In this document: one piece after another, positions 4,356 through 16,308 of the stretch
How positions within the stretch are numbered: position 1 is the first letter of the stretch
Layout of the letters: each line of letters opens with the position of its first letter
From: a bacterium
GTDB taxonomy: Bacteria > JAHJDO01
Direction of reading: 5' to 3'
NCBI GenBank assembly: GCA_030611945.1
Contig: JAUWOV010000038.1
Span: 1 to 16,796, forward strand
Length of the DNA stretch: 16,796 nt
Position numbers and translations under genes: made by a program
Notes under the pieces: generated by a model
Database searches by the model: none
The model's input: the letters and a program-made list of their open reading frames with translations, nothing else
What the model was told of the DNA's origin: nothing

Positions 4356-4757
4356 ATGCGTATAGCGATCTCAACAGACGGAGATTCTGTTTCAGCTCAT
4401 TTTGGAAGATGTCCTTCTTATACGATCGTAGATATTGAAGATGGAAAGGTAGGGAAAAAAGAGGCTGTTGACAATCCGGGGCATATGCCCGGCGCTATAC
4501 CTCAGTTTCTGCATGAAAAAGGAGTTGAGTGTATTATAGCAGGAGGAATGGGAGCAAGAGCTGTGGGCTTTTTTGATGAATTTGGTATTAAACCAATTGT
4601 AGGTGTGCAAGGAAGAATAGATGAAATCATTGAGAAACTGATCAAAGGCGAGCTTAAGGGAGGAGAAAGCTTGTGCAAGCCTAGTGCTGGCAAAGGATAT
4701 GGTATAGACAAGACTCTATGTGATCATCCAGATGAAACAAATAAATGTAACCAATAA
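4356..4757 (+). CDS. NifX/NifB-family Fe-Mo cofactor-binding-like protein, Cys-rich tail
   Basis: A 133-residue protein of the dinitrogenase iron-molybdenum cofactor family (Nitro_FeMo-Co domain). The start MRIAISTDGDSVSAHFGRCP is the hallmark, followed by NPGHMPG near residue 46, IIAGGMGARAVGFF near residue 67 and a conserved GGESLCKPSAGKGYG segment. The C-terminal tail carries three cysteines (C107, C121 and C131 by count), suggesting an Fe-S or metal site. In nitrogen fixers such proteins carry FeMo-co precursors, but many nif-lacking anaerobes keep stand-alone copies whose function is unsettled. AAGGGGG precedes the ATG at good spacing, and the gene begins six bases after the flavoenzyme. 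A second, divergent copy follows immediately. Confidence 0.88.
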   Translation: MRIAISTDGDSVSAHFGRCPSYTIVDIEDGKVGKKEAVDNPGHMPGAIPQFLHEKGVECIIAGGMGARAVGFFDEFGIKPIVGVQGRIDEIIEKLIKGELKGGESLCKPSAGKGYGIDKTLCDHPDETNKCNQ

Positions 4758-4770
4758 AGGGGATGTAACT

Positions 4771-5142
4771 ATGAAAATTTGTATAACTTCACAGGGAGAT
4801 AATTTGGACTCGCAGGTTGACCCAAGGTTCGGAAGATGTCAGTATTTTATTATTGCGGATACGGAAAATTCAGATTTTGAAGCAGTTCAGAATCAGAATC
4901 TATCCGGTATGGGCGGAGTTGGAATTCAGTCAGCTCAATTTATGGCAGAAAAAGAGGTGAAGACCGTTTTAACAGGTAATGTCGGTCCAAACGCTTTTCA
5001 AGGGTTACAAGCAGCAGGCGTAGAGATAATAACAGGCGTGTCAGGCAGTATCAAAGAAGCAATAGAAAAATATAACAAAGGCGAGCTCAAAGCAACTCAA
5101 GGGGCAAGTGTAAACTCAAAGTTCGGCATGGGTCAAAAATAA
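4771..5142 (+). CDS. NifX/NifB-family Fe-Mo cofactor-binding-like protein, second copy
   Basis: A 123-residue protein of the same family as its upstream neighbour: MKICITSQGDNLDSQVDPRF and then GRCQYFII form the N-terminal signature, and GNVGPNAFQGL with ITGVSG forms the second half. Unlike its neighbour it has no Cys-rich tail and ends in a Gly-rich stretch (KFGMGQK). The start was placed at 4771 because AAAGGGGA lies about eight bases upstream and because the family begins with MKI; an earlier in-frame ATG at 4720 overlaps the preceding gene and adds residues that do not fit the family. The two NifX-type proteins are likely old paralogues that may work as a pair. No nifHDK, nifE/N or nifB gene is visible. 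Confidence 0.87.
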   Translation: MKICITSQGDNLDSQVDPRFGRCQYFIIADTENSDFEAVQNQNLSGMGGVGIQSAQFMAEKEVKTVLTGNVGPNAFQGLQAAGVEIITGVSGSIKEAIEKYNKGELKATQGASVNSKFGMGQK

Positions 5143-5327: not shown

Positions 5328-5747
5328 ATGAATGAAATTTATCTGAATAAATTGCAGGAAAAAAATTTCAAGCTTACTCCTCGCCGCATAGCTATTATAG
5401 ATTTCTTTTTAAGCAGGGAACGATATCTAAATCCTGAAATTATCTGGAAAGGATTGAAAAAGAAGTTTAAACATCTGGGCTTGCCAAGCATCTATAGAAA
5501 TCTGGAGCTATTTTCAAAGTGCGGGATACTTACAAAAATTCAGATGCCTAATAGAAAGCTTTATTATGGATTATGCAAGGCAAAAGACAACAAACATCAC
5601 CATCATATAGTATGTATAAAATGCGGCAAAGTTGGAGAATTTTTTGAGGAGAATTTGTTTGAAAAGAAAACGATCAATGGATTTAAGGTATTAAATCATT
5701 TTTTACAGGTAGAAGGCATATGTTCTACCTGCAGGATAAAAAGCTGA
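5328..5747 (+). CDS. zur: Fur-family metal-dependent repressor, probably Zur
   Basis: The 139-residue protein has the Fur layout: an N-terminal winged helix (KLTPRRIAIIDFF, then LPSIYRNLELFSKCGIL as the recognition helix region) and a C-terminal metal-binding dimerisation domain. HHHH at 90-93 and the paired motifs C96-x-x-C99 and C132-x-x-C135 match the structural zinc site plus the regulatory His cluster. It lies directly before a zinc-type ABC transporter, and the same palindrome stands before it and before that transporter, so zinc sensing (Zur) is the best reading. Fur (iron), Mur or PerR cannot be excluded by sequence alone. The ribosome site is weak (GGGA), which would keep repressor levels low. 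It is likely autorepressed through the operator at 5292-5314. Confidence 0.83.
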   Translation: MNEIYLNKLQEKNFKLTPRRIAIIDFFLSRERYLNPEIIWKGLKKKFKHLGLPSIYRNLELFSKCGILTKIQMPNRKLYYGLCKAKDNKHHHHIVCIKCGKVGEFFEENLFEKKTINGFKVLNHFLQVEGICSTCRIKS

Positions 5748-5755
5748 TTTTTTTT
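5706..5755 (+). terminator. hairpin plus downstream T-run at the 3' end of the repressor gene
   Basis: CAGGTAGAA (5706-5714) and TTCTACCTG (5723-5731) form a perfect 9-base stem with an 8-base loop, inside the last codons of the repressor gene. A run of eight T's follows at 5748-5755. The 16-base gap between stem and T-run is too long for a standard intrinsic terminator, so the call is tentative. Confidence 0.3.
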
Positions 5756-5762
5756 AATTATT

Positions 5763-5783
5763 AAATAGAAATGATTTCTACTA
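5763..5783 (+). promoter_or_regulatory. inverted-repeat operator, site 2 (before znuA)
   Basis: AAATAGAAA, spacer TGA, then TTTCTACTA. The central arms TAGAAA and TTTCTA are a perfect inverted repeat; the outer three positions are only partly symmetrical. A possible -10, TACTAT (5779-5784), overlaps the site, with no convincing -35 upstream. It lies 36 bases before the znuA start, where repressor binding would block transcription of the transporter operon. Confidence 0.7.
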
Positions 5784-5819
5784 TTCAGAGGACATTAACA
5801 AATTAGGAGGCTGATACTT

Positions 5820-6728
5820 ATGAGAAGATTAATGGTTCTTTTGGTTGTTACTGCTTTATTGATAAATGGTAAAACGATCAATGCTCAGTCTACTCAAGAC
5901 AGCAAGAAAAAGATTGGAGTTGTCGTAACTATACTTCCTCTGGCTGATTTTGTAGAGAACATAGGGAAAGATAAAGTTGATGTGTCTGTTGTGATTCCTC
6001 CGGGCGGGAACCCACATACTTATGAACCAACTCCAAGTCAGTTAAAACAGGTAAGCCAAGCGCAAATGTATGTGAAGGTGGGCTCAGGGGTTGAATTTGA
6101 ATTAGCCTGGATGGATAAACTTGCTTCTTTAAACAAGAATATGCTTATTTGCGATAGTTCAGAAGGTATTAGATTGATAGAGATGACAGAGCGCCATCAT
6201 AAGAAAAATAAAGAACATCATAATGAAGATGGGTATCATCATGGCAAGGATCCACATATTTGGCTTTCTCCGGTTAATGCAAAGGTAATAGTTGCAAACA
6301 TCAAAAATGCTCTCATTGAAATCGACCCAGGGAATAAAGAATTTTATACTCATAACGCACAAGAGTTTATCTTAAGACTGGATAATCTTAATAAAGAATT
6401 CGGAGATAATCTTTCTGCATTAAAAAACAGGACTTTTATTGTTTTTCATCCTGCATGGGGCTATTTTGCTTCTGATTATGGTTTAAAGCAAATACCGATT
6501 GAAGTTGAAGGCAAGGAACCTACTGTTAAAGAATTAATTAAACTAATAAAGAAAGCGAAAAAATGCAACATAAGAGTTGTTTTTGCTTCTCCTCAGTTTA
6601 GTAAAAAAAGCGCTGAAGTTATTGCCAAAGAAATTAACGGTAAAGTTGTATTTATGGATCCCTTAGCTAAAAACTATATAGAAAATTTACATAAGGTTGT
6701 AGACGCATTTACCCAAAGTTTAAAATGA
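5820..6728 (+). CDS. znuA: zinc ABC transporter, periplasmic binding protein
   Basis: This 302-residue cluster A-I (TroA/ZnuA) solute-binding protein would capture Zn(II) in the periplasm and pass it to the ZnuB permease. Residues 1-22 form a signal peptide with a probable cut after TINA; there is no lipobox cysteine. The metal ligands of the family are present: H66 (NPHTYEPTPSQ), H146 (DPHIWLSP), H210 (FHPAWGYF) and D280 (FMDPLA). Between residues 121 and 145 is a loop rich in His and charged residues (H126, H127, H133, H134, H140, H141), the mark of zinc rather than manganese members. The GGAGG ribosome site is strong. Its stop overlaps the next gene's start by four bases (ATGA). An operator-like palindrome just upstream points to repression when zinc is ample. 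Confidence 0.92.
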   Translation: MRRLMVLLVVTALLINGKTINAQSTQDSKKKIGVVVTILPLADFVENIGKDKVDVSVVIPPGGNPHTYEPTPSQLKQVSQAQMYVKVGSGVEFELAWMDKLASLNKNMLICDSSEGIRLIEMTERHHKKNKEHHNEDGYHHGKDPHIWLSPVNAKVIVANIKNALIEIDPGNKEFYTHNAQEFILRLDNLNKEFGDNLSALKNRTFIVFHPAWGYFASDYGLKQIPIEVEGKEPTVKELIKLIKKAKKCNIRVVFASPQFSKKSAEVIAKEINGKVVFMDPLAKNYIENLHKVVDAFTQSLK

Positions 6729-7492
6729 ATAGCGAAAAAGAAATTGTTAGTTTAAGAAATATTTATGTGGATTATGATGGTCAGACTGTCTTGGAAGATG
6801 TGAGTCTTTCTATAAAAGCAAATGACTTTTTGGGTATAATTGGACCGAATGGAGGGGGAAAGACTACGTTGCTTAAAGTAATCCTTGGCTTGATAAATCC
6901 AAAGGAGGGCGAAATCAAAATTTTTGGAAAAAATCCTGATAAGGTAAGGAGATTTGTAGGATATGTTCCGCAGACCCGTATTTTTGATCGGGAGTTTCCT
7001 ATAAATGTTTGGGATGTTGTGTTGATGGGCAGACTTTCCAACACCAGCCTATTAAAATATTACAATGAGGAGGATAGGAATATTACCCATCAAGCTCTCA
7101 GGGCAGTAGAAATGTTTGATTTCAAATATAGACAAATAGGCAAACTTTCCGAAGGTCAGAGACAAAGGGTTTTTATTGCTAGAGCTCTTGTCTCTGAACC
7201 TAGACTTCTTCTTCTTGATGAACCGACAGCAAGTGTTGATACGCATATGCAGCAAGGAGTTTATGATTTGTTGAAAGGATTAAAGGATAAAATGGCAATT
7301 GTCTTAGTGTCGCATGATATTGGAGTAATTTCGAGTTTCGTAGATAAGATTGCTTGCCTTAACCGCAAGCTTTTTTACCATAACTCAAAAGAAATAACCA
7401 GAGAAGATCTGGAGACAGTCTATCAATGTCCCGTAGAGATGATAGCGCATGGTGTTCCTCACAGGGTAATGAAGGAGCATAAAGAAAAATGA
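6725..7492 (+). CDS. znuC: zinc ABC transporter, ATPase subunit
   Basis: A 255-residue ABC ATPase that hydrolyses ATP on the cytoplasmic face to drive metal import. All motifs are intact: Walker A GPNGGGKT at 40-47, Q-loop Q83, signature LSEGQ at 141-145, Walker B LLLLDE at 161-166 and the H-loop H197 in LVSHD. The GPNGAGK consensus has G for A, common in metal importers. The C-terminal tail ([15 protein letters not shown]) is typical of ZnuC/MntB-type ATPases. It overlaps znuA upstream and znuB downstream by four bases each (ATGA), so the three subunits are probably produced in step. Confidence 0.93.
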
Positions 7493-8313
7493 TAGAAGCA
7501 TTGCAATATGAGTTTATAAGAAATGCTTTATTGTCTGCAATACTTGCCAGCATTGCCTGTGGGATTATCGGGACGTATGTTGTCGTAAAAAGAATAGTTT
7601 TTATAAGCGGCGGTATTGCTCATGCTGCATTTGGCGGTATTGGGTTGGGATATTTTTTGGGAATTAATCCAGTACTGGGAGTTATACCTTTTAGCATTGC
7701 TTCTGCGCTGGGTATAGGATTGGTAAGCAAAAAGAGTAAACTTCCTGAAGATACGACCATCGGGATTTTTTGGTCAATGGGAATGGCTCTAGGTGTTATC
7801 TTTATTGGGCTTACTCCAGGTTATGCCCCCGACCTTTTTAGCTACCTTTTTGGCAATATTTTAACTGTGCCCTCTTCTGATATAAGGTTAATGCTTATTC
7901 TAGATACCATCATTATTGTGGTAGTGAGTTTACTATATAAAGAATTTTTAGCTCTTTCTTTTGATGAAGAATTTGCAAAAACATCAGGGATCAAAGTTAT
8001 GACCCTTTATTTAGTTCTTTTGAGCCTCGTTGCGATCACAGTAGCAATGCTTGTGAGGATTGTTGGTATTATTCTGGTAATTGCTTTATTAACAATTCCT
8101 GCTGCAATCGCAAAACAGTATACAGATAGTTTAAGAAAAATGATGTTTCTCTCCATTCTTTTAGGCGTTATGTTTACCCTGTGTGGCTTATGGTTTTCTT
8201 ACTTTTTTGACATGGCATCCGGAGCAACAATCATCTTGTTTTCAGGGTGTGCTTTTGGGATTTCTTCAACATATAAAAGTATCACTAAACGCTTGCATAA
8301 TGCACGCATGTAA
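7489..8313 (+). CDS. znuB: zinc ABC transporter, permease subunit
   Basis: A 274-residue, strongly hydrophobic ABC-3 family permease forming the inner-membrane channel for the metal delivered by ZnuA. The family signature is visible: [29 protein letters not shown] near residues 28-57, then a series of membrane segments, [19 protein letters not shown] around residues 187-205 and a C-terminal helix rich in small residues. The H in [10 protein letters not shown] is conserved in the family. The ATG overlaps the znuC stop. The protein is full length. Zinc rather than manganese specificity is taken from znuA's His-rich loop and the Fur/Zur context, not from this subunit. Confidence 0.92.
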
Positions 8314-8328
8314 TATTTTTTATTTAAT

Positions 8329-8349
8329 AAACAGAAACGGCTTCTATTT
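8329..8349 (+). promoter_or_regulatory. inverted-repeat operator, site 3 (before small His-rich gene)
   Basis: AAACAGAAA, spacer CGG, then CTTCTATTT. Sixteen of eighteen arm positions agree with the perfect site at 5292-5314, and the same 9-3-9 spacing is kept. It lies only 12 bases before the ATG at 8362, so bound repressor would sit over the start of that transcript and might control the receptor gene behind it as well. Confidence 0.65.
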
Positions 8350-8361
8350 AGAACAAGAGAT

Positions 8362-8673
8362 ATGAAAATTATTATTAGGATGGGACGAATTTTAGGCATT
8401 GTATTGTTCGTGAGCGGTGTCGTTCTTTATCTTTTATTTGCCTCGTTTCATCCTTTGCTTCATAACCACCATGCAGATGGAAAACATCATCCAGATTGTC
8501 CTGCCTGCAACTTTTTACTTACAGCCGCTTTTTCTGATATACCTGAGATAGTTGTTTTTCCCGCTATTTCATATCACGCAGTCTTTGTAATGCTTCCTTA
8601 CTATCATCAACCATACCAACAGTTATTTTATTATTCTCATTCCAATCGCGGACCTCCTGTAAATTTCGTTTAG
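8362..8673 (+). CDS. small His/Cys-rich membrane-anchored protein (DUF2946-like)
   Basis: The product has 103 residues: one hydrophobic N-terminal segment (about 9-28), then a metal-binding-looking stretch with H30, H34, H36, H37, H42, H43 and the pair C46-x-x-C49 (DCPAC), a hydrophobic middle and a tail ending NRGPPVNFV. The layout, with His cluster, CPxC and a terminal RGPP, resembles the small DUF2946-type proteins found beside TonB receptors and metal genes in proteobacteria; the assignment is from memory. A periplasmic metal-binding or metal-passing role is inferred from the residues and the place between znuB and the receptor. The palindrome right before it suggests control by the same repressor. 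The ribosome site is poor (AAGAGA), and a later ATG at 8380 is a possible alternative start. Confidence 0.72.
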   Translation: MKIIIRMGRILGIVLFVSGVVLYLLFASFHPLLHNHHADGKHHPDCPACNFLLTAAFSDIPEIVVFPAISYHAVFVMLPYYHQPYQQLFYYSHSNRGPPVNFV

Positions 8674-8758
8674 CAATAAAATCCTATCATTTTAAGTTTC
8701 AAAAAAAGGTAGGCGTATCTTTTATATAAAATCTTTAAAATTTAAGGAGGATTGTATT

Positions 8759-10801
8759 ATGCGAAAACTATTGGTTGTATTTTTAATGTTAACATTTCTT
8801 ATACACGGAGTATTACTTTATGCTCAGGATATAGGCAAAACAGTGTTTAAATTAGGAGAAGTTGTTGTATCGGCAAAGGAAGGAAAAGAAGCGGGAAAAT
8901 TAGAAGGCAAGAGCAAGATAAAGAGTGAAGTTCTTAAAACACATAAAATTGTGGATCTTGCGGAAATTCTTTCTGATGAAATGATAACAGCCAGTATGAT
9001 CAGAAAAAGCGGCTATGGGAATGAAGTTGGCTTGAGGGGTTTTTCACAGTCAAACTTGAGGTTCTTTGTAGACGATACTATTGTTGAAGGAGCCTGCGGC
9101 AGTAGAAAAGACCCTTCTTTCTCGCATATCGGTTTGCTAGGCGTTGACCGCATAGAAGTGACAGAGGGCCCGTTTGATGTGACCAAAGCAGGCGCGCTTG
9201 GCGGGAGCGTCAATGTGGTTACGAAAAAACCGCAAGAGGGGTTTCATGGTGAACTGCTTGAAAAAATTGGAAGTCACGGCTATTGGAGTAATGGAGCCTA
9301 CTTCACAGGCGGGAATAAACTAATTCAGGCATTGCTTGGCTACAATTACTCTCAGGCGGATCAATATAAAGACGGAGACGGTAATTCGCTAAACAGCTTT
9401 AATCATGGTTACAGCGAAGAAGGCAAAGGCATGAAGGAATTTAAAAAACATGATGCTTGGGGTAAATTGCAGTTCAGGATAACGGATGACCAAACACTTA
9501 TTCTCTCACATACCTACGGATACGCTCATGATGTTATGGCGCCGCGGGCAGGAATGGATATAGAAACCGAAAGAACAAATTTAAGCAGCGCTGAATATAT
9601 CTTTAATGACCTTGGAGATTACTCGGACAAATTAACGGTATCATTTTATCATAACAAGATAGAGCATAATCCTTACAATAAGTATAGAGACGCTTCAATT
9701 ACAGATGGGTATGTTAAAGCTAACGATGTGGAGACAATTACTATTGGCGGGAAAATAGAGAATGAGCAGTCAACGGATTTTGCCGATTTTACCTATGGTT
9801 TTGATATATATCGCCGTAAATGGAATGGCTATATGTTTAATAAAGACACCGGCAAGACAATAAAATCCGATTTCTTTCCTGACACAAGTGCTCTTGGCTC
9901 AGGTCTTTACCTAAAAGCGGATAAAGATATTGATAAGTGGTCATTAGGCGCTGGTATTCGCGGCGACTATTTTGAAACAAAAGCCAATGATCTAAAAAAC
10001 GGGAGTCTTAGATACAGCCAAAAACTGACAGATACCAACGGAAATACGAATATATTTCCCAGCGGATATGCTACGGCAAAATATCACATCAATGAGCAGT
10101 CTGATATTTTTGGCGGAATTGGACGCAGTGTCCGCACTCCTACGCTTGCTGAACGCTATCTTCAGGCTTCCAATGGTTTCTATGGCAATCCTGATTTAAA
10201 AGAAACAAAAAACACAGAAGCTGACCTTGGATATCAAACGAATATTGGGAGAGTTAACTTCAGAATAAAAGGGTTTTACAGCTGGCTGGAGGATTACATT
10301 TATCAGCAGGCTAAACCAAAAACATGGACAAATATAAACGCTCATATTTATGGCGGCGATGTGAGTACTCTTACAGATATTGGAAATGATTTTTCAATAG
10401 GCGCGGCAGTAGCTTATCAACAAGGCAGAAAGGATTCTTATCCGGACAATAACTCAGATAAAGATCTTGCGCAGATTCCACCATTAAAGACTAAACTCAG
10501 CATAAACTACGACAATTCTAAGTTCTTCGGGATATTGGAATGGATCTGTTCGGGAAATGCTAAGGACGTTGATGCTGATGCAGGAGAGCAGAAAATGAAG
10601 GGTTGGGATGTGTTTAATTTTAGAACAGGGTATAAGTATAAACAGGTAACATTTAATATTGGCGTAGATAACATATTTGATAAGAAATACGCTGTGGCTA
10701 ACTCCTATGAGTGGGATGTTGTTGGAGGATCATCAGCAGCGCCGAATATAGTAAGTGAGCCCGGTAGATTTATTTACACAAGTCTTTGTTACGCATTTTA
10801 A
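8759..10801 (+). CDS. TonB-dependent outer-membrane receptor, probably for a metal
   Basis: A 680-residue receptor that would import a ligand through the outer membrane using TonB energy. Residues 1-22 are a signal peptide (LLYA before QD). The TonB-box-like segment VFKLGEVVVSA is at 29-39. A plug domain follows (VGLRGFSQSNLRFFVDD near 90-106; VDRIEVTEGP; AGALGGSVNVVTKKP), then a beta barrel ending in the aromatic residue F (CYAF). The plug segment EGACGSRKDP (C113) resembles the GCPNHMDPP segment of copper receptors such as OprC/NosA, but the methionine four residues after the cysteine is lysine (K117). Together with the neighbouring znu genes and the His-rich small protein this favours a metal ligand, zinc or copper; iron-siderophore uptake is the main alternative. 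A strong AAGGAGG ribosome site precedes it. Confidence 0.9.
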   Translation: MRKLLVVFLMLTFLIHGVLLYAQDIGKTVFKLGEVVVSAKEGKEAGKLEGKSKIKSEVLKTHKIVDLAEILSDEMITASMIRKSGYGNEVGLRGFSQSNLRFFVDDTIVEGACGSRKDPSFSHIGLLGVDRIEVTEGPFDVTKAGALGGSVNVVTKKPQEGFHGELLEKIGSHGYWSNGAYFTGGNKLIQALLGYNYSQADQYKDGDGNSLNSFNHGYSEEGKGMKEFKKHDAWGKLQFRITDDQTLILSHTYGYAHDVMAPRAGMDIETERTNLSSAEYIFNDLGDYSDKLTVSFYHNKIEHNPYNKYRDASITDGYVKANDVETITIGGKIENEQSTDFADFTYGFDIYRRKWNGYMFNKDTGKTIKSDFFPDTSALGSGLYLKADKDIDKWSLGAGIRGDYFETKANDLKNGSLRYSQKLTDTNGNTNIFPSGYATAKYHINEQSDIFGGIGRSVRTPTLAERYLQASNGFYGNPDLKETKNTEADLGYQTNIGRVNFRIKGFYSWLEDYIYQQAKPKTWTNINAHIYGGDVSTLTDIGNDFSIGAAVAYQQGRKDSYPDNNSDKDLAQIPPLKTKLSINYDNSKFFGILEWICSGNAKDVDADAGEQKMKGWDVFNFRTGYKYKQVTFNIGVDNIFDKKYAVANSYEWDVVGGSSAAPNIVSEPGRFIYTSLCYAF

Positions 10802-10827
10802 AAAGCATTAACTTAAACTCACCCTGA

Positions 10828-10881
10828 CCCTCTCTTGCCCTGAACCAGAGTTTCTCTCGGTTCGGGGCTTGACAGAGAGGG
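10828..10881. repeat. long imperfect palindrome (REP-like) between receptor and exbB
   Basis: The outer arms CCCTCTCT (10828-10835) and AGAGAGGG (10874-10881) pair exactly. The inner arms CCCTGAACC (10838-10846) and GGTTCGGGG (10859-10867) pair with one G-T wobble, and the tip AGAG-TTT-CTCT folds again. No T-run follows on either strand at the right distance, so it is not a standard terminator. The CACCCTGACCCTCTC flavour and high GC contrast with the AT-rich surroundings and recall dispersed intergenic palindromic repeats. Confidence 0.55.
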
Positions 10882-10907
10882 AAAAAGGTAGCAGAAGTAT
10901 AAAAAAT

Positions 10908-10912
10908 GGAGG
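10908..10912 (+). promoter_or_regulatory. Shine-Dalgarno that sets the exbB start
   Basis: GGAGG lies five bases before the ATG at 10918. An in-frame ATG at 10906 would put this sequence inside the coding region and has no ribosome site of its own. Confidence 0.7.
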
Positions 10913-10917
10913 TTATA

Positions 10918-11544
10918 ATGTTTGAATTTTTTCTAAAAGGCGGATTTTTGATGTGGCCGATATTTCTATGTTCAGTAATATCAATTGCTCTTATCCTGGA
11001 ACGTTTTTACTATTTGCACAAGGAGAAGATTGATATTTCTGAATTTTTCTCTCAAATAAAGGAACTTTTAATGAAGGGAAAAAGAGACAAGGCACTCACA
11101 GTTTGCCGGCAAAATGGAGGTTCATTTGGAAGAGTATTATCTGTGGGCATTCAAAATCATAGAAGAAATCTTCAGCATCAGGAAAAAGTTGTTTCCCGCA
11201 TAGGTTCCAGCGAAGTGAGAAACTTAGAAAAACACTTAAGAGGTTTAGCTGTTATTGGCAATATCACTCCTCTTCTGGGTCTGCTTGGCACTGTTACAGG
11301 AATGATTAAGGCGTTTATAAAGATTCAGGAGTTGGGCGGCAGTGTAGATACTTCTGTTTTGGCAGGTGGAATTTGGGAGGCTCTTCTTACTACTGCTGCG
11401 GGGTTATCCGTGGCTATACCAACCATGGTCTTTTATCATTATTTTGAGGCGAGGGTGGATAACATAGCTGTGCAGATGAAAGACGCTGCTCAAGAGCTGC
11501 TTGAACTTTTCGGAGCTAAAGAGGATGAGCCTTATGGAATTTAA
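10918..11544 (+). CDS. exbB: ExbB/TolQ/MotA-family proton channel protein
   Basis: The 208-residue inner-membrane protein has the ExbB layout: one helix near the N-terminus (about 12-30), a large cytoplasmic part and two helices (about 108-130 and 153-175). The conserved threonines and small residues that line the pore are visible in NITPLLGLLGTVTGM and ALLTTAAGLSVAIPTM. With ExbD it uses the proton gradient to energise TonB. It starts a three-gene set with exbD and tonB, lying just downstream of the receptor gene, so this unit probably serves that receptor. TolQ is close in sequence, but tonB two genes on favours ExbB. The stop overlaps the start of exbD by 11 bases. Confidence 0.9.
   Translation: MFEFFLKGGFLMWPIFLCSVISIALILERFYYLHKEKIDISEFFSQIKELLMKGKRDKALTVCRQNGGSFGRVLSVGIQNHRRNLQHQEKVVSRIGSSEVRNLEKHLRGLAVIGNITPLLGLLGTVTGMIKAFIKIQELGGSVDTSVLAGGIWEALLTTAAGLSVAIPTMVFYHYFEARVDNIAVQMKDAAQELLELFGAKEDEPYGI
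11521..11524 (+). promoter_or_regulatory. Shine-Dalgarno that sets the exbD start
   Basis: GAGG within the last codons of exbB lies nine bases before the ATG at 11534. The ATG at 11525 abuts it directly, and a TTG at 11501 has no better site. Confidence 0.5.
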
Positions 11545-11962
11545 AAGACGAAAAAAGATTCATACGCAGCTGGACATTGCGCCATTAATAGATATTGTCT
11601 TTTTGCTTCTTATCTTTTTTATGCTCTCTTCTCACTTTATCACTCAATCAGGTATAAAGATTATCCTGCCAAAAGCGGTTACTGCAAAATTACATCAGGA
11701 AGAAGATATTGTTATATTTATCTCTGAACATAACAATCTGTATTTGAACAAAGAGCCTCTGACATTGGATGCTCTTCTGATTAAATTAAAGGCAAAAGTG
11801 AAACAAAGCGAAAAAAAGACAGTAATTATCAAAGCAGATGAAAGGATTAATTTGGGGCTGGCAGTGAAGGTTATGGATATTGCTAAACAGGCAGATGCAG
11901 AAGGATTAATAATCTCCGCTAAAATAGAGCAACAAGACATAGGAACACAAAAGCACGAATAA
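11534..11962 (+). CDS. exbD: ExbD/TolR-family proton-motive protein
   Basis: A 142-residue protein: a short basic cytoplasmic N-terminus (MEFKRRKK), a single membrane helix with the essential aspartate D20 in PLIDIVFLLLIFFML, and a periplasmic domain from about residue 40. The Asp is the one protonated during channel function in the family. ExbD assembles with ExbB and moves or activates TonB. The start was placed at 11534 by ribosome-site spacing; upstream in-frame starts would add up to 11 residues that overlap exbB. The gene is followed by tonB with a single base between stop and ATG. Confidence 0.88.
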   Translation: MEFKRRKKIHTQLDIAPLIDIVFLLLIFFMLSSHFITQSGIKIILPKAVTAKLHQEEDIVIFISEHNNLYLNKEPLTLDALLIKLKAKVKQSEKKTVIIKADERINLGLAVKVMDIAKQADAEGLIISAKIEQQDIGTQKHE

Positions 11963-11963
11963 A

Positions 11964-12578
11964 ATGATTGAAGACAAGATAATAAAAATAGCGCTTGTGG
12001 TTTCTCTTGCAGGACATTGTCTGTTTTTAGGTGTGCCTGGATTCAATTTATCTGCTCCTAAGACTCAAGAAAAAAAAGATATTACTATTGAAATAAAAAT
12101 AGAAAGACCAGCTCTTTTGCCAAAGATAGATGTGATGGGAAAAGAGAAAAAAATAAAGAATGAAGTTATAGAAAATCCAGAACCTAAAGAGCAAACTAAA
12201 GAAGCAACTTTAAAGAAAGAGATCATAGAAAAACCAAAGCAAAAGCCGCCTCTGGAGTCTGTTAAGATAAACGATTCTCAAGATGAATCAATGCTCAGGT
12301 ATCAGGATATGGTCAAGCAAAGGATTGAACAGGCAAGAAGATATCCATTATGGGCAAGGAGGCAGAAAATAGAGGGAGCGGTTTATCTTAGATTTGCAAT
12401 TTTATCAAACGGGACATCTCAAGAAATCAGGATTTTACGTTCTTCTGGATTCAAAAGACTGGACAAGGAAGCAATTGCTATCATAAAAAGAGCGGAACCT
12501 TTTCCGCCAGTCCCAAAAGAAATATGCGCTTCTGAACTTCAAATGGAGATTGCCATTGTCTTCAATATCCATGATTAA
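11964..12578 (+). CDS. tonB: TonB energy-transducing protein
   Basis: The 204-residue protein has the three TonB parts. One membrane helix (about 7-25) contains S14 and H18 with the S-x-x-x-H spacing of the functional TonB helix. A Lys/Glu/Pro-rich linker (about 35-108) would span the periplasm. The C-terminal domain (about 110-204) has the family pattern RYPLWARRQKIEGAVYLRF, then ILRSSGFKRLDKEAIAIIKR and PFPPVP. This domain contacts the TonB box of the outer-membrane receptor. The linker is charged rather than strongly Pro-rich and is short. There is no clear ribosome site, so translation is probably coupled to exbD, which ends one base before. It is the only TonB in the window and pairs naturally with the receptor upstream. 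Confidence 0.88.
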   Translation: MIEDKIIKIALVVSLAGHCLFLGVPGFNLSAPKTQEKKDITIEIKIERPALLPKIDVMGKEKKIKNEVIENPEPKEQTKEATLKKEIIEKPKQKPPLESVKINDSQDESMLRYQDMVKQRIEQARRYPLWARRQKIEGAVYLRFAILSNGTSQEIRILRSSGFKRLDKEAIAIIKRAEPFPPVPKEICASELQMEIAIVFNIHD

Positions 12579-12586
12579 AATTGTCT

Positions 12587-12614
12587 TTGACTACATAAAT
12601 AATCGTGATAGAAT
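12587..12614 (+). promoter_or_regulatory. possible promoter of the CDF-SPFH operon
   Basis: TTGACT (12587-12592) and TAGAAT (12609-12614) are separated by 16 bases. Transcription would begin only about five bases before the ATG at 12626, which also lacks a ribosome site, so the message could be leaderless. The -10 box is half of a 13-base palindrome TAGAATTATTCTA (12609-12621). Confidence 0.45.
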
Positions 12615-12625
12615 TATTCTAAATT

Positions 12626-14437
12626 ATGACTAAAGAAGAAATAACAGCTCTTATATCGTCTTTTGTTAATCTGATATTATCAGTTGCGAAATTTATATTG
12701 GCAGCTTATTCAGGCAGCATAGCTCTTCTTGCTCAAGCGTGGGCATCTATATTTGACATACTTTCATCATTTGTGCTTTTTGGCGCGCTTAGAATGGACA
12801 GGGCGGACGCTGCGGCAAGGAAGAATTCGGTTAACTCTCAGGAAAACTATAGAGATACGGGTTCTATTTTTAAGGATGAAAACTTATCTCAAAAGGAAAA
12901 GCCTTTAGCGCGCAGACGGCTCTTCATCTCAAGATTAGAAGAAAAAGTGGCTGTTGGAATTGGGCTTTCCCTTATTTTTATATCGTATAAAATATTTATG
13001 AAAATAATTCATCCTTCTTCTATTGTTATTAAAAACCCTATTCCTGCGGCTTTTGTTATGGCTTTGCTGGCATTGGGTTCTTATCTTTTATCTAAATTCG
13101 AGGTATACGTTGGAGAAAAAAGCAAATCACCCGGACTCATAGCAGACGGTTATCACTCTAAGGTTGATATGTTCGGCTCCATATTAGTTGTTGTTGCGCT
13201 TCTGAGCGAGCATCTCGGTTTTCACATTGACGGGATAGCAGCAGTGATAATTTGCGGAATTATATTTATTCATGCATTGCATGTGCTTACAACAGCTTTA
13301 AAAGCGTATATGAATCCACGGGAAAAAAGTTATTTAAAGGATGCTCAACAGCATGAGGACATATTGGTGATATTTATTAAAGAGAAACTGCCTTTATTAA
13401 TGGATCGTTTGTATAGCGCATTATCCATGAAATTGTATCTGACCGGCAATTATAATCAAAATAAGAAGACATTAAACAAGGTCATAACAATTGTAATTTT
13501 AGTAATTGCTGCCGGCATATATTTTTCTTCGGGAATATATATGCTGAATCCGCATGAAAAAGCGATTGTGGAGCGTTTTGGAAAGCCCTTGAACATTACA
13601 AAACCTGTTCTGCCTGGTCTTCATTACGCTCTTCCTTTGCCTATTGACAGGATTAACAGAATAGACACTGAGAGAATAAGACGGATAAGCATTGGCTATA
13701 AGGCGGCTAAAGACTATCAGTTGATATTGTGGACAAACGTTCATTATAAAGAGGAATTGCCTTTTCTAACAGGAGAGAACAGTTTTCTGGATCTAAGTAT
13801 GAATGTTCATTATAGAATTAAGGATATATATAATTTTTTATACAGGAATTCATCTCCTGATGTCCTGATGGAGGAGCTTACCAATACCATATTGACAAAT
13901 GCTCTGTCAAAAAGAGAATTCTTTCCAACAATCACTGTTGATAGAGAAAAACTTGAATGGCAGATCCGTGAAACTCTCCAGATGAAACTTGACGAATTTA
14001 AAACTGGAATAGTGATAGTAGGAATACACTTCAGAGACATTCATCCTCCTACAGCCATTGCTGCAGCTTTTGAGGATGTTGTAAGCGCTCAGGAGGATTA
14101 TGAAACATACATTCATAAAGCAAAAGGCTATGAAAATAAAGTAATTCCTCATGCCAGAGCTACAAAGGTTAAGATGAAGAACGAAGCCGCTGCTTACAGA
14201 AATAATGTGCTGGCAAAGAGCAAGGGAGAATCCGGAAGGTTTCTCAATCAGCAGGCTGCGCATAGAAAGCATCCTGATATTACGGAAACACGTCTTTATA
14301 TAGAAGGAATGGAAGATGTTCTGCCTGATGTTCAGAAGTTTATCATATATCCCAAAGATGGAGAAAAGATTCCGGACATCTGGTTTTTTCAGGGCAATCA
14401 AGCGAACATTTCCACAATAATCAGAGAGGAGAAATAA
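12626..14437 (+). CDS. fusion of CDF-type cation transporter membrane domain and HflK-like SPFH protein
   Basis: The 603-residue protein has two parts. Residues 1-230 are a six-helix cation diffusion facilitator domain: helices at about 5-25, 30-52, 106-125, 138-156, 180-196 and 203-222. TM5 keeps the H-x-x-x-D metal site (H177, D181 in DGYHSKVD). TM2 keeps D44 but has A40 where the first ligand is expected, and Q37 in place of a common Asp. The cytoplasmic CDF domain is absent. After a linker, a seventh helix (286-306) leads into an SPFH/HflK domain (EKAIVERFGKPL, then PGLHYALPLPIDRI) and an Ala/Lys-rich coiled coil (about 485-545). HflK proteins form inner-membrane cages with HflC around FtsH. 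The CDF half may export or bind divalent metal, or be a structural relic. I know of no characterised protein with this architecture. Confidence 0.85.
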   Translation: MTKEEITALISSFVNLILSVAKFILAAYSGSIALLAQAWASIFDILSSFVLFGALRMDRADAAARKNSVNSQENYRDTGSIFKDENLSQKEKPLARRRLFISRLEEKVAVGIGLSLIFISYKIFMKIIHPSSIVIKNPIPAAFVMALLALGSYLLSKFEVYVGEKSKSPGLIADGYHSKVDMFGSILVVVALLSEHLGFHIDGIAAVIICGIIFIHALHVLTTALKAYMNPREKSYLKDAQQHEDILVIFIKEKLPLLMDRLYSALSMKLYLTGNYNQNKKTLNKVITIVILVIAAGIYFSSGIYMLNPHEKAIVERFGKPLNITKPVLPGLHYALPLPIDRINRIDTERIRRISIGYKAAKDYQLILWTNVHYKEELPFLTGENSFLDLSMNVHYRIKDIYNFLYRNSSPDVLMEELTNTILTNALSKREFFPTITVDREKLEWQIRETLQMKLDEFKTGIVIVGIHFRDIHPPTAIAAAFEDVVSAQEDYETYIHKAKGYENKVIPHARATKVKMKNEAAAYRNNVLAKSKGESGRFLNQQAAHRKHPDITETRLYIEGMEDVLPDVQKFIIYPKDGEKIPDIWFFQGNQANISTIIREEK

Positions 14438-14440
14438 CAA

Positions 14441-15334
14441 ATGAAAGCAGGAAACAAGTTTTTAATAATAATGCTTATAGTTATTGTAGGTCTATCGTTT
14501 TTGGTCTTCTACAAGGTTGATGAGAGAGAACATGTTGTCATTACTCAGTTTGGACATCCTGTTAAAACTATTACTGAGCCGGGTCTTTACTATAAATGGC
14601 CTGACCCTGTTCAGACAGTTAATAGGTTTGAAAAAAGGCTAATGCTTTATAAAACCAGATTGATTGAATATCTCACACAGGATAAAAAGAATATAATTGT
14701 GCAGTGTTTTGTATGCTGGAGAATTGATGAGCCTTTAGAATTTTTTCAGGCGATAGGGAATAATATAAGCGCCGCAAAAAAGATTGATGACATTGTTTGC
14801 GCTCAGATTGGAAGCATTCTTGGTAATTATGAAATGTCGTCAATAATATCAATAGAAAAGGATGCTGTGAAGATCAAGGAAATAGAAAAAGCCATAACAG
14901 AAAACAGCAACAAAAAAACTATGGATTCCTACGGCATTGAAATAAAAGAAATAGGTATATGCCGGCTTGCATTGCCACAGGATAATGTTGAGAGCGTATA
15001 TAAAAGAATGAAGTCTGAAAGAGAGTCAATTGCAAATAAATACCGCGCAGAAGGCAGAGAAAAGGCGGATATAATAAGATCCGAGGCGAATAAAATCCAA
15101 AGCAACATACTGTCTGAAGCCTATAAAGACGCTGAGATTATAAAAGGAGAGGGAGATGCTGCCGCTACAAAAATATATGCGGAAGCGTTTGAAAAAGATT
15201 CTGCGTTTTACAAGTTTATAAGAACTTTGGAATCTTATAAGAAGATAATTGATGATAAAACTACAGTTGTTCTTTCATCCAAATCCGATCTACTCAAATA
15301 TCTCAATAAAAAGACAAATAAGGCTACTAAATAG
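14441..15334 (+). CDS. hflC: HflC-like SPFH protein
   Basis: A 297-residue prohibitin/stomatin-family (SPFH) protein with one N-terminal membrane helix (about 7-25), an SPFH domain beginning VDEREHVVITQFGHPV and PGLYYKWPDPVQTV, and a long coiled coil from about residue 185. The HflC signature YKRMKSERESIANKYRAEG followed by KADIIRSEA is present, and the tail (SSKSDLLKYL) matches HflC. HflC pairs with HflK to form a membrane cage that restricts the FtsH protease. No ftsH gene is in the window, so the partner protease, if used, is elsewhere. A GAGGAGAA site precedes the ATG, three bases after the fusion gene's stop. C101 and C111 in the SPFH domain are unremarkable single cysteines. Confidence 0.87.
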   Translation: MKAGNKFLIIMLIVIVGLSFLVFYKVDEREHVVITQFGHPVKTITEPGLYYKWPDPVQTVNRFEKRLMLYKTRLIEYLTQDKKNIIVQCFVCWRIDEPLEFFQAIGNNISAAKKIDDIVCAQIGSILGNYEMSSIISIEKDAVKIKEIEKAITENSNKKTMDSYGIEIKEIGICRLALPQDNVESVYKRMKSERESIANKYRAEGREKADIIRSEANKIQSNILSEAYKDAEIIKGEGDAAATKIYAEAFEKDSAFYKFIRTLESYKKIIDDKTTVVLSSKSDLLKYLNKKTNKATK

Positions 15335-16308
15335 TGGATAAAGACAGCAGAAATCTTACTGAACTAAAAAAGGATATTCTATCCGCCTTTTCGACGGATA
15401 CCAATAAATTATGCCGTTGGTTTGCTGTATTGCTATTCGGAATATACTTGCTCTCAGGCATATATATTGTGAAAATAAATGAAGTTGGACTTGTCAGGCG
15501 GTTTGGAAAACTGATTCGTGAGAATGTTGAGTCTGGTATTCACTATCGTATGCCGTGGCCAATAGACGAAGTTGATAAGGTAAGGATCAAAGAAATTATG
15601 AGAACAGAGCTTTCATTCTGGTCAGATAAGATAGATAAAGATACACTTCCATCTTACTGCGTAACAGGGGACAAAAACATAGTGCATCTTAAGATGGTTG
15701 TTAATTATCAGATAAAAGAGCCAAAGAGCTTTTTATACGAAATTTATAATTCAAAGAAGATACTTGAAAATTCCATGTATTCAGCTATGGTTGATGCGAT
15801 CGCTAAGGTAAACGTTGATGATATTCTTACTACGGCTAAGCATAGATTTCAGCAGGACACTATGCGTCTATGTCAGGAAAGGTTGAATTTTCTAGGAACC
15901 GGTTTAGAGATAAAGTCAGTAGAACTTAAGAATATAGAGCCTCCATCGGAAGTTCTTCCAATGTTCAAAGATGTGGTCAATGCCAGAGAAGACGCTTCAA
16001 CTATGATTCATGACGCAGAATCATATTCTAACAAGATCATTCCAAATGCGCAGGCAGAGGCTGCAAAAACAATCAGTCAGGCGCAGGCGTATAAGATAAA
16101 GAAGACAGCTTATGCGCAGGGAGAGACAAATAAATTCCTGAAGATATTAGAGGAGTATAAGAAAGCAAAAGATATTACAGAGTTCAGGTTGCATGTGGAG
16201 ACTTTAGAGAAAGTCATGCCAAAAGCAAAAAAATATATCACCGGTTCAGACACAAAGGGTAAGGAAATAGCAAATACCAAGTTTTTTATAAACTCTGAAA
16301 AGAGATAA
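15334..16308 (+). CDS. hflK: HflK-like SPFH protein, second copy
   Basis: The 324-residue protein has a cytoplasmic N-terminus, one membrane helix (about 28-46), an SPFH domain (VGLVRRFGKLIRENVESG, then YRMPWPIDEV) and an Ala/Gln-rich coiled coil (about 215-285; PNAQAEAAKTISQAQAYK). Order and length match HflK. It closely resembles the C-terminal half of the CDF fusion (compare GIYLLSGIYIV with GIYFSSGIYML and the shared tail before the C-terminus), so the two are paralogues. It uses a GTG start overlapping the stop of the HflC-like gene (TAGTG) and has no ribosome site of its own, implying coupled translation. No later ATG gives a complete domain. Together the three genes could build a mixed SPFH cage with CDF-bearing subunits. 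Confidence 0.86.
   Translation: MDKDSRNLTELKKDILSAFSTDTNKLCRWFAVLLFGIYLLSGIYIVKINEVGLVRRFGKLIRENVESGIHYRMPWPIDEVDKVRIKEIMRTELSFWSDKIDKDTLPSYCVTGDKNIVHLKMVVNYQIKEPKSFLYEIYNSKKILENSMYSAMVDAIAKVNVDDILTTAKHRFQQDTMRLCQERLNFLGTGLEIKSVELKNIEPPSEVLPMFKDVVNAREDASTMIHDAESYSNKIIPNAQAEAAKTISQAQAYKIKKTAYAQGETNKFLKILEEYKKAKDITEFRLHVETLEKVMPKAKKYITGSDTKGKEIANTKFFINSEKR

Follow-up and report, generated by a model that had tools for sequence, protein, structure and literature searches.

A CDF metal-transporter domain fused to HflK in a three-gene bacterial cassette, with other metal exporters in the same slot elsewhere

SPFH cages occur in all domains of life, and both their cargo and their purpose are debated. 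A cage subunit covalently joined to an exporter names its cargo directly and provides a genetic handle on the service of the cage to a transporter. We analyzed a stretch of bacterial DNA of 16,796 nucleotides (the window), for which a preliminary description had reported a cation diffusion facilitator (CDF) domain joined to an HflK-like SPFH protein, and asked whether this joined protein is real and what it might do.

The continuous frame of 603 codons was found exactly where it had been reported, at 12626-14437 on the plus strand (Table 1). Searched separately, both halves of its product scored above curated Pfam cut-offs: Cation_efflux matched at 66.5 bits (cut-off 26.6) in two stretches, the best covering residues 109 to 225, and Band_7 matched at 70.9 bits (cut-off 23.6) over residues 307 to 501. 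The HflK equivalog model of NCBIfam, TIGR01933, reached 190.2 bits (cut-off 159.4) and spans residues 304 to 579. Hydropathy indicates six helices plus the HflK anchor, with approximately 50 residues between TM6 and TM7, and it agrees with Cation_efflux on the six CDF-type helices, with H177 and D181 in TM5, of the preliminary description. At an E value of 0.1, Pfam gave no match in the window protein to the cytoplasmic C-terminal domain of CDF proteins (ZT_dimer), and this result, combined with the TIGR01933 score, bears out the earlier claim that an HflK-like protein replaces that domain. The NCBIfam model of the CDF superfamily, TIGR01297, describes a whole CDF protein and so covers more than the membrane domain found in the fusion; the window protein scored 63.6 bits, below the cut-off of 82.35, which three other fusions passed (L029, 96.5 bits; L034, 86.4; L031, 82.7). 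The fusion gene, hflC, and a second, unfused hflK (encoding HflK2) follow one another with almost no gap, and the 47 bases that separate the fusion gene from tonB contain a promoter-like site.

Table 1. Positions in the window of the fusion gene, its parts, and its cassette partners
Feature	Position	Strand	Basis
cdf-hflK fusion gene, 603 aa	12626..14437	+	ORF listing, Pfam, NCBIfam
CDF membrane domain, six helices, residues 1-232	12626..13321	+	Pfam PF01545, hydropathy, alignment of 27 fusions
TM2 half of metal site, A40-x3-D44	12743..12757	+	alignment of fusions, hydropathy
TM5 half of metal site, H177-x3-D181	13154..13168	+	alignment of fusions, hydropathy
Linker, residues 233-284, net positive, predicted cytoplasmic	13322..13477	+	hydropathy/charge, dN/dS
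Seventh membrane helix, the HflK signal anchor, residues 285-304	13478..13537	+	hydropathy; alignment to E. coli HflK in PDB 7vhp
SPFH / Band 7 domain, residues 307-501	13544..14128	+	Pfam
HflK C-terminal helical region	14129..14434	+	aligned to PDB 7vhp_E up to residue 580
hflC, cassette gene 2, 297 aa	14441..15334	+	TIGR01932, 196.7 bits (cut-off 134.4)
Second hflK (HflK2, unfused), cassette gene 3, 324 aa	15334..16308	+	TIGR01933, 205.5 bits (cut-off 159.4)
Promoter-like site TTGACT-16-TAGAAT	12587..12614	+	consensus scan only; no evidence of function

A frame error or assembly join at about 13,300 to 13,500 could have merged two separate genes, and we checked this region and found neither. 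The chance of 603 stop-free codons at the GC content of the window is approximately 1e-18. In three congeners, the fusion frame has the same length and no stop codon, with identities of 92, 79, and 76%. Among the congeners, dN/dS (Nei-Gojobori) was 0.12 to 0.18 for the whole gene, less than 0.4 for every segment, and 0.06 to 0.16 for the linker itself. Given the intact frame in the congeners and the low values in each segment and in the linker, we conclude that the fusion gene was produced neither by a join nor by a frame error.

The architecture is not unique to the window. We ran a profile built from six fusions over 385 genomes spread across the bacterial domain and detected CDF-HflK fusions beyond the genus in eleven genomes from nine families (the eleventh, G275, by Pfam), at lower identity than in the three congeners. 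The fusion is near-universal in the phylum of G214 (16 of 20 genomes) and also occurs in those of G028 (2 of 3), G268 (2 of 9), and G138 (3 of 8: G138, G416, and G275). Because these phylum lists are disjoint, and because families f36, f149, f189, and f202 belong to none of them, the carriers represent at least six phyla, that of the window included. Congener G002 (96% complete) yielded no fusion and no CDF match at all. Of 21 regions, 18 showed the gene order fusion, HflC, HflK2 directly in the calls of a simple gene picker; this picker had masked one gene in each of the remaining regions (L075, L078, and L084), and profile searches found it.

We also inspected long HflK frames without a CDF match in their N-terminal half for other domains. 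In ten genomes, HflK is fused to a Cu/Zn permease of the SO_0444 family, nine of these above the curated NCBIfam cut-off (NF033936) and the tenth by Pfam ArsP_1; at these loci (L053, L054, L056-L060, L063, L064, and L066), the fusion is again followed by HflC and a second HflK. One genome, G367, has two SO_0444-HflK fusions. The founding member of the SO_0444 family is required for growth under Zn or Cu stress (PMC3219624). In five genomes of a single phylum, HflK is fused to a P1B heavy-metal ATPase to give a protein of approximately 1,040 aa (L055, at G268:C146, and L139-L143; one is cut by a contig end) with the motifs CPC, DKTGT, and GDGINDA. An HP dipeptide outside the SPFH part was seen in L139 only. 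Judged by these sequences, three unrelated types of metal exporter, namely CDF, SO_0444 permease, and P1B ATPase, share one slot of the cassette. The preliminary description thus saw something real and described it nearly correctly, and the stronger finding, the swapping of exporters, lies outside the window.

The metal role proposed earlier had been drawn from the position of the gene after a zinc-uptake locus. Directly upstream of the fusion gene and in the same direction (window 5328-12578), there are a FUR-family regulator, ZnuA/ZnuC/ZnuB-like uptake genes, a gene for a small His-rich protein (8362-8673), a TonB-dependent receptor, and ExbB/ExbD/TonB; the receptor and ABC parts were identified by eye. 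These neighbors are particular to the window, and other congeners have different genes upstream of the cassette, which weakens the zinc-uptake neighborhood as evidence of function. A CbiQ-type transporter in G004 and a ZnuA in G175 each lie some kilobases from the cassette. The metal role itself is much better supported than before, because elsewhere the exporter carried by this cassette is a P1B ATPase or a Cu/Zn permease. Genes of the iron-sulfur or cofactor kind (NifX-like and MinD/NBP35-like) are present at window 4356-5142 and near the cassettes in L069, L072, and L076; these calls were made by eye from sequence starts only.

Trees of the two halves of the fusion suggest an old, modular system. 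In the HflK-domain tree (88 rows, a quick search, root not inferred), the canonical HflKs form one clade (26 rows; support 98, starred), and the window protein falls outside it. The fused HflKs make up two further clades: type I, which includes the window protein and contains CDF and ligand-less fusions (100, starred), and type II, which contains SO_0444, CDF, and P1B fusions (96, starred). The HflK2 partners of type I group together as well (99, starred). In the CDF-domain tree, 19 fused domains stand on one side and 20 stand-alone CDFs on the other (support 86, not starred), and the type I group is repeated (100, starred). Distances of the CDF and HflK halves correlate at r = 0.93, which shows that the halves were inherited together rather than that they interact, because shared descent gives the same signal. 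It is the congruence of the trees, together with the position of the fused HflKs outside the canonical clade, that points to age and modularity. The simplest reading would be a single old CDF-HflK fusion in which the CDF was later replaced by SO_0444 and P1B exporters in type II and its ligands were lost in part of type I. L041 and L068, two odd HflKs that break the groups of the tree, are located at or close to the ends of contigs and are probably truncated fusions.

How might such a protein be arranged? The TM2-3 loop (+12/-7) and the TM6-7 linker (+9/-6) of the fusion are both net positive, from which we infer that the N-terminus and the linker are cytoplasmic and that the SPFH domain is periplasmic. 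Structure prediction for the monomer from five sequences gave a pLDDT of 42 and a pTM of 0.27, at which the secondary structure alone is usable. In E. coli, 24 alternating HflK and HflC subunits form a cage on the periplasmic side around FtsH (PMC12048511). The explanation that we favor, with a probability of roughly 0.5 for the whole, is that the products of the genes at 12626-16308 assemble into an SPFH cage of the HflK/HflC type that tethers metal exporters, one of its two K-type subunits bearing an N-terminal exporter domain. This domain would sit in the inner membrane as six helices with both ends in the cytoplasm, and a short cytoplasmic linker would lead to the HflK anchor helix, through which the chain would cross to the periplasm. 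There, the SPFH and helical parts would join HflC and HflK2 in the cage wall, holding the exporters at the base of the periplasmic dome. The SPFH assembly would also stand in for the lost CDF cytoplasmic domain in bringing the CDF units together. Each cassette encodes two K-type subunits, which makes it a plausible guess that the wall has the order K1-C-K2-C and carries six exporter domains. Because any of the three exporter types can occupy the slot, the task shared by these cassettes would be metal export tied to the cage, whether by releasing metal locally into the dome, by clustering the exporters, or by controlling them. Against the proposed cage, metal genes are not constant neighbors of the cassette, and the window protein and its nearest relative, L006, do not have the TM2 His.

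The metal site bears directly on whether the CDF half transports. In YiiP, site A consists of Asp45 and Asp49 in TM2 and His153 and Asp157 in TM5, all of them essential, and in human ZnTs the site specific for zinc is of the HD-HD type (PMC6465983). Among the 27 aligned CDF fusions, HxxxD is present in TM2 in 25 and in TM5 in 26, and the four-ligand transport site (D/HxxxD in TM2 with HxxxD in TM5) is kept in 24. The TM5 exception is L067, which has Asn for the last Asp, and the TM2 exceptions are the window protein and L006, in which A40 replaces His. The earlier account of the site therefore holds for H177 and D181 in TM5 and needs correction in TM2, where the matching pair is A40 and D44 and the first ligand is missing. 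The window protein and L006 differ at residue 36 as well, with Q in place of the E or D of their relatives (Glu in the other congeners). With one of the four ligands absent, transport cannot be assumed for the window protein. For TM1-2, dN/dS was 0.07 between the window and L006 and approximately 0.3 to the other congeners; because these helices are thus strongly constrained again, the A40 change looks like a shift in use, not decay. Under the tethered-exporter explanation, the changed site means that the copy in the window's lineage may have a different export selectivity or may do no more than bind metal. No CDF other than the fused one was found in the window genome, and the same holds for several other carriers.

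Within the clade of the window fusion, three fusions (L061, L062, and L065) have a six-helix domain without any CDF ligand joined to HflK. Pfam assigns no family to this domain, which is perhaps a worn CDF, although its homology is weak. These proteins, together with A40 in the window protein and L006, suggest that some members may have become sensors or anchors. The corresponding alternative is that the CDF part does not transport at all, and that metal bound between TM2 and TM5 shifts the cage, and perhaps FtsH or its substrates, into another state. This alternative would chiefly concern the ligand-less members and the lineage of the window, in the latter of which the renewed constraint on TM1-2 agrees with it. 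As a general account it is possible but doubtful, given how widely the TM2 and TM5 pairs are kept among the fusions and that the slot elsewhere holds active-looking pumps, one of them ATP-driven with its catalytic motifs, which would be costly for a sensor.

A cage built for quality control or turnover is an unlikelier alternative. Here, the cage would bring FtsH to the exporter or shield the exporter from it, so that the amount of exporter tracks metal or stress. In E. coli, HflK/C associate with FtsH and regulate how it reaches membrane proteins (PMC12048511, PMC13220708), and changing Arg185 of E. coli HflK together with two other residues reduces the binding of FtsH (PMC13220708). Of 26 canonical HflKs, 23 have a basic residue at the corresponding position, as do, in keeping with this alternative, most type II fusions (14 of 16 with CDF, 9 of 11 with SO_0444). 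In type I, however, the position is basic in only 1 of 12 and acidic in 8, and it is not basic in the window protein, which makes a canonical FtsH link less likely for this cassette. The window genome does contain one FtsH, far from the cassette, which has no FtsH of its own; a separate, unfused canonical HflK/HflC pair is present on another contig (G000:C50:8073-9631). At the position of E. coli residue 242, a His precedes the conserved Pro-Pro in 41 of 43 fused HflKs and 7 of 26 canonical ones.

We consider it very improbable that a normal CDF exporter was joined by chance to a normal HflK and that each works independently. Each domain is recognizable alone, and CDF proteins without a cytoplasmic domain are known, according to PMC6465983 (citing Kolaj-Robin 2015); nevertheless, six or more phyla keep the fusion along with an HflC and a second HflK of its own, the trees of its halves are congruent, its linker is constrained, and other exporters occupy the same slot. 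Hardly credible at all is an assembly or frame artefact that merged two genes, as four assemblies of the genus and many further families have the frame whole.

If the cage with tethered exporters is correct, exporters of unrelated superfamilies built into the wall might constitute a distinct machinery, a modular "metal-export cage" that delivers metal to a closed-off chamber in the periplasm and is inherited across phyla as a three-gene unit while the pump is exchanged; we offer this broader proposal only tentatively. What makes the cassette informative is that the exporter has been swapped among three unrelated superfamilies while HflC and the second HflK stay, and that a CDF domain is maintained without its regulatory dimer domain. 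A literature search, limited largely to openly available journal papers, uncovered no earlier account of an SPFH protein fused to a CDF, ArsP, or P-type ATPase domain; domain databases may already list the architecture.

Among known systems, CDF proteins that have no C-terminal domain, such as MmCDF3, are known as stand-alone proteins. The MmCDF3 (Maricaulis maris) type is likewise a six-helix CDF without a cytoplasmic domain (PMC6465983; PMC4995437, which cites Russell and Soulimane 2012), and the fusion differs from it by the joined SPFH subunit. With YiiP/FieF, MamB/MamM, and ZnT, the fusions share the six helices, the TM5 HxxxD, and in most cases the TM2 HxxxD; they differ in having an SPFH protein instead of the cytoplasmic C-terminal domain and an extended TM2-TM3 loop, and the window copy is without one site-A ligand. 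The SO_0444 transporter (NF033936) and P1B ATPases (TIGR01525) occupy the same slot in sister cassettes with their characteristic motifs kept; their folds are unrelated, and they are absent from the window's cassette. The closest counterpart of the remainder is the E. coli HflK/HflC cage (PDB 7vhp, 7wi3, and 9cz1; SPFH3 subfamily), with which the cassette shares the SPFH domain, the signal-anchor helix, the C-terminal helical region, and an adjoining HflC (window fusion versus E. coli HflK, E = 7e-34). It differs from that cage in the six-helix exporter domain that precedes the anchor, in its two K-type subunits, in the position of its fused HflKs and HflK2s outside the canonical clade, and in type I by an Arg185 that is not kept.
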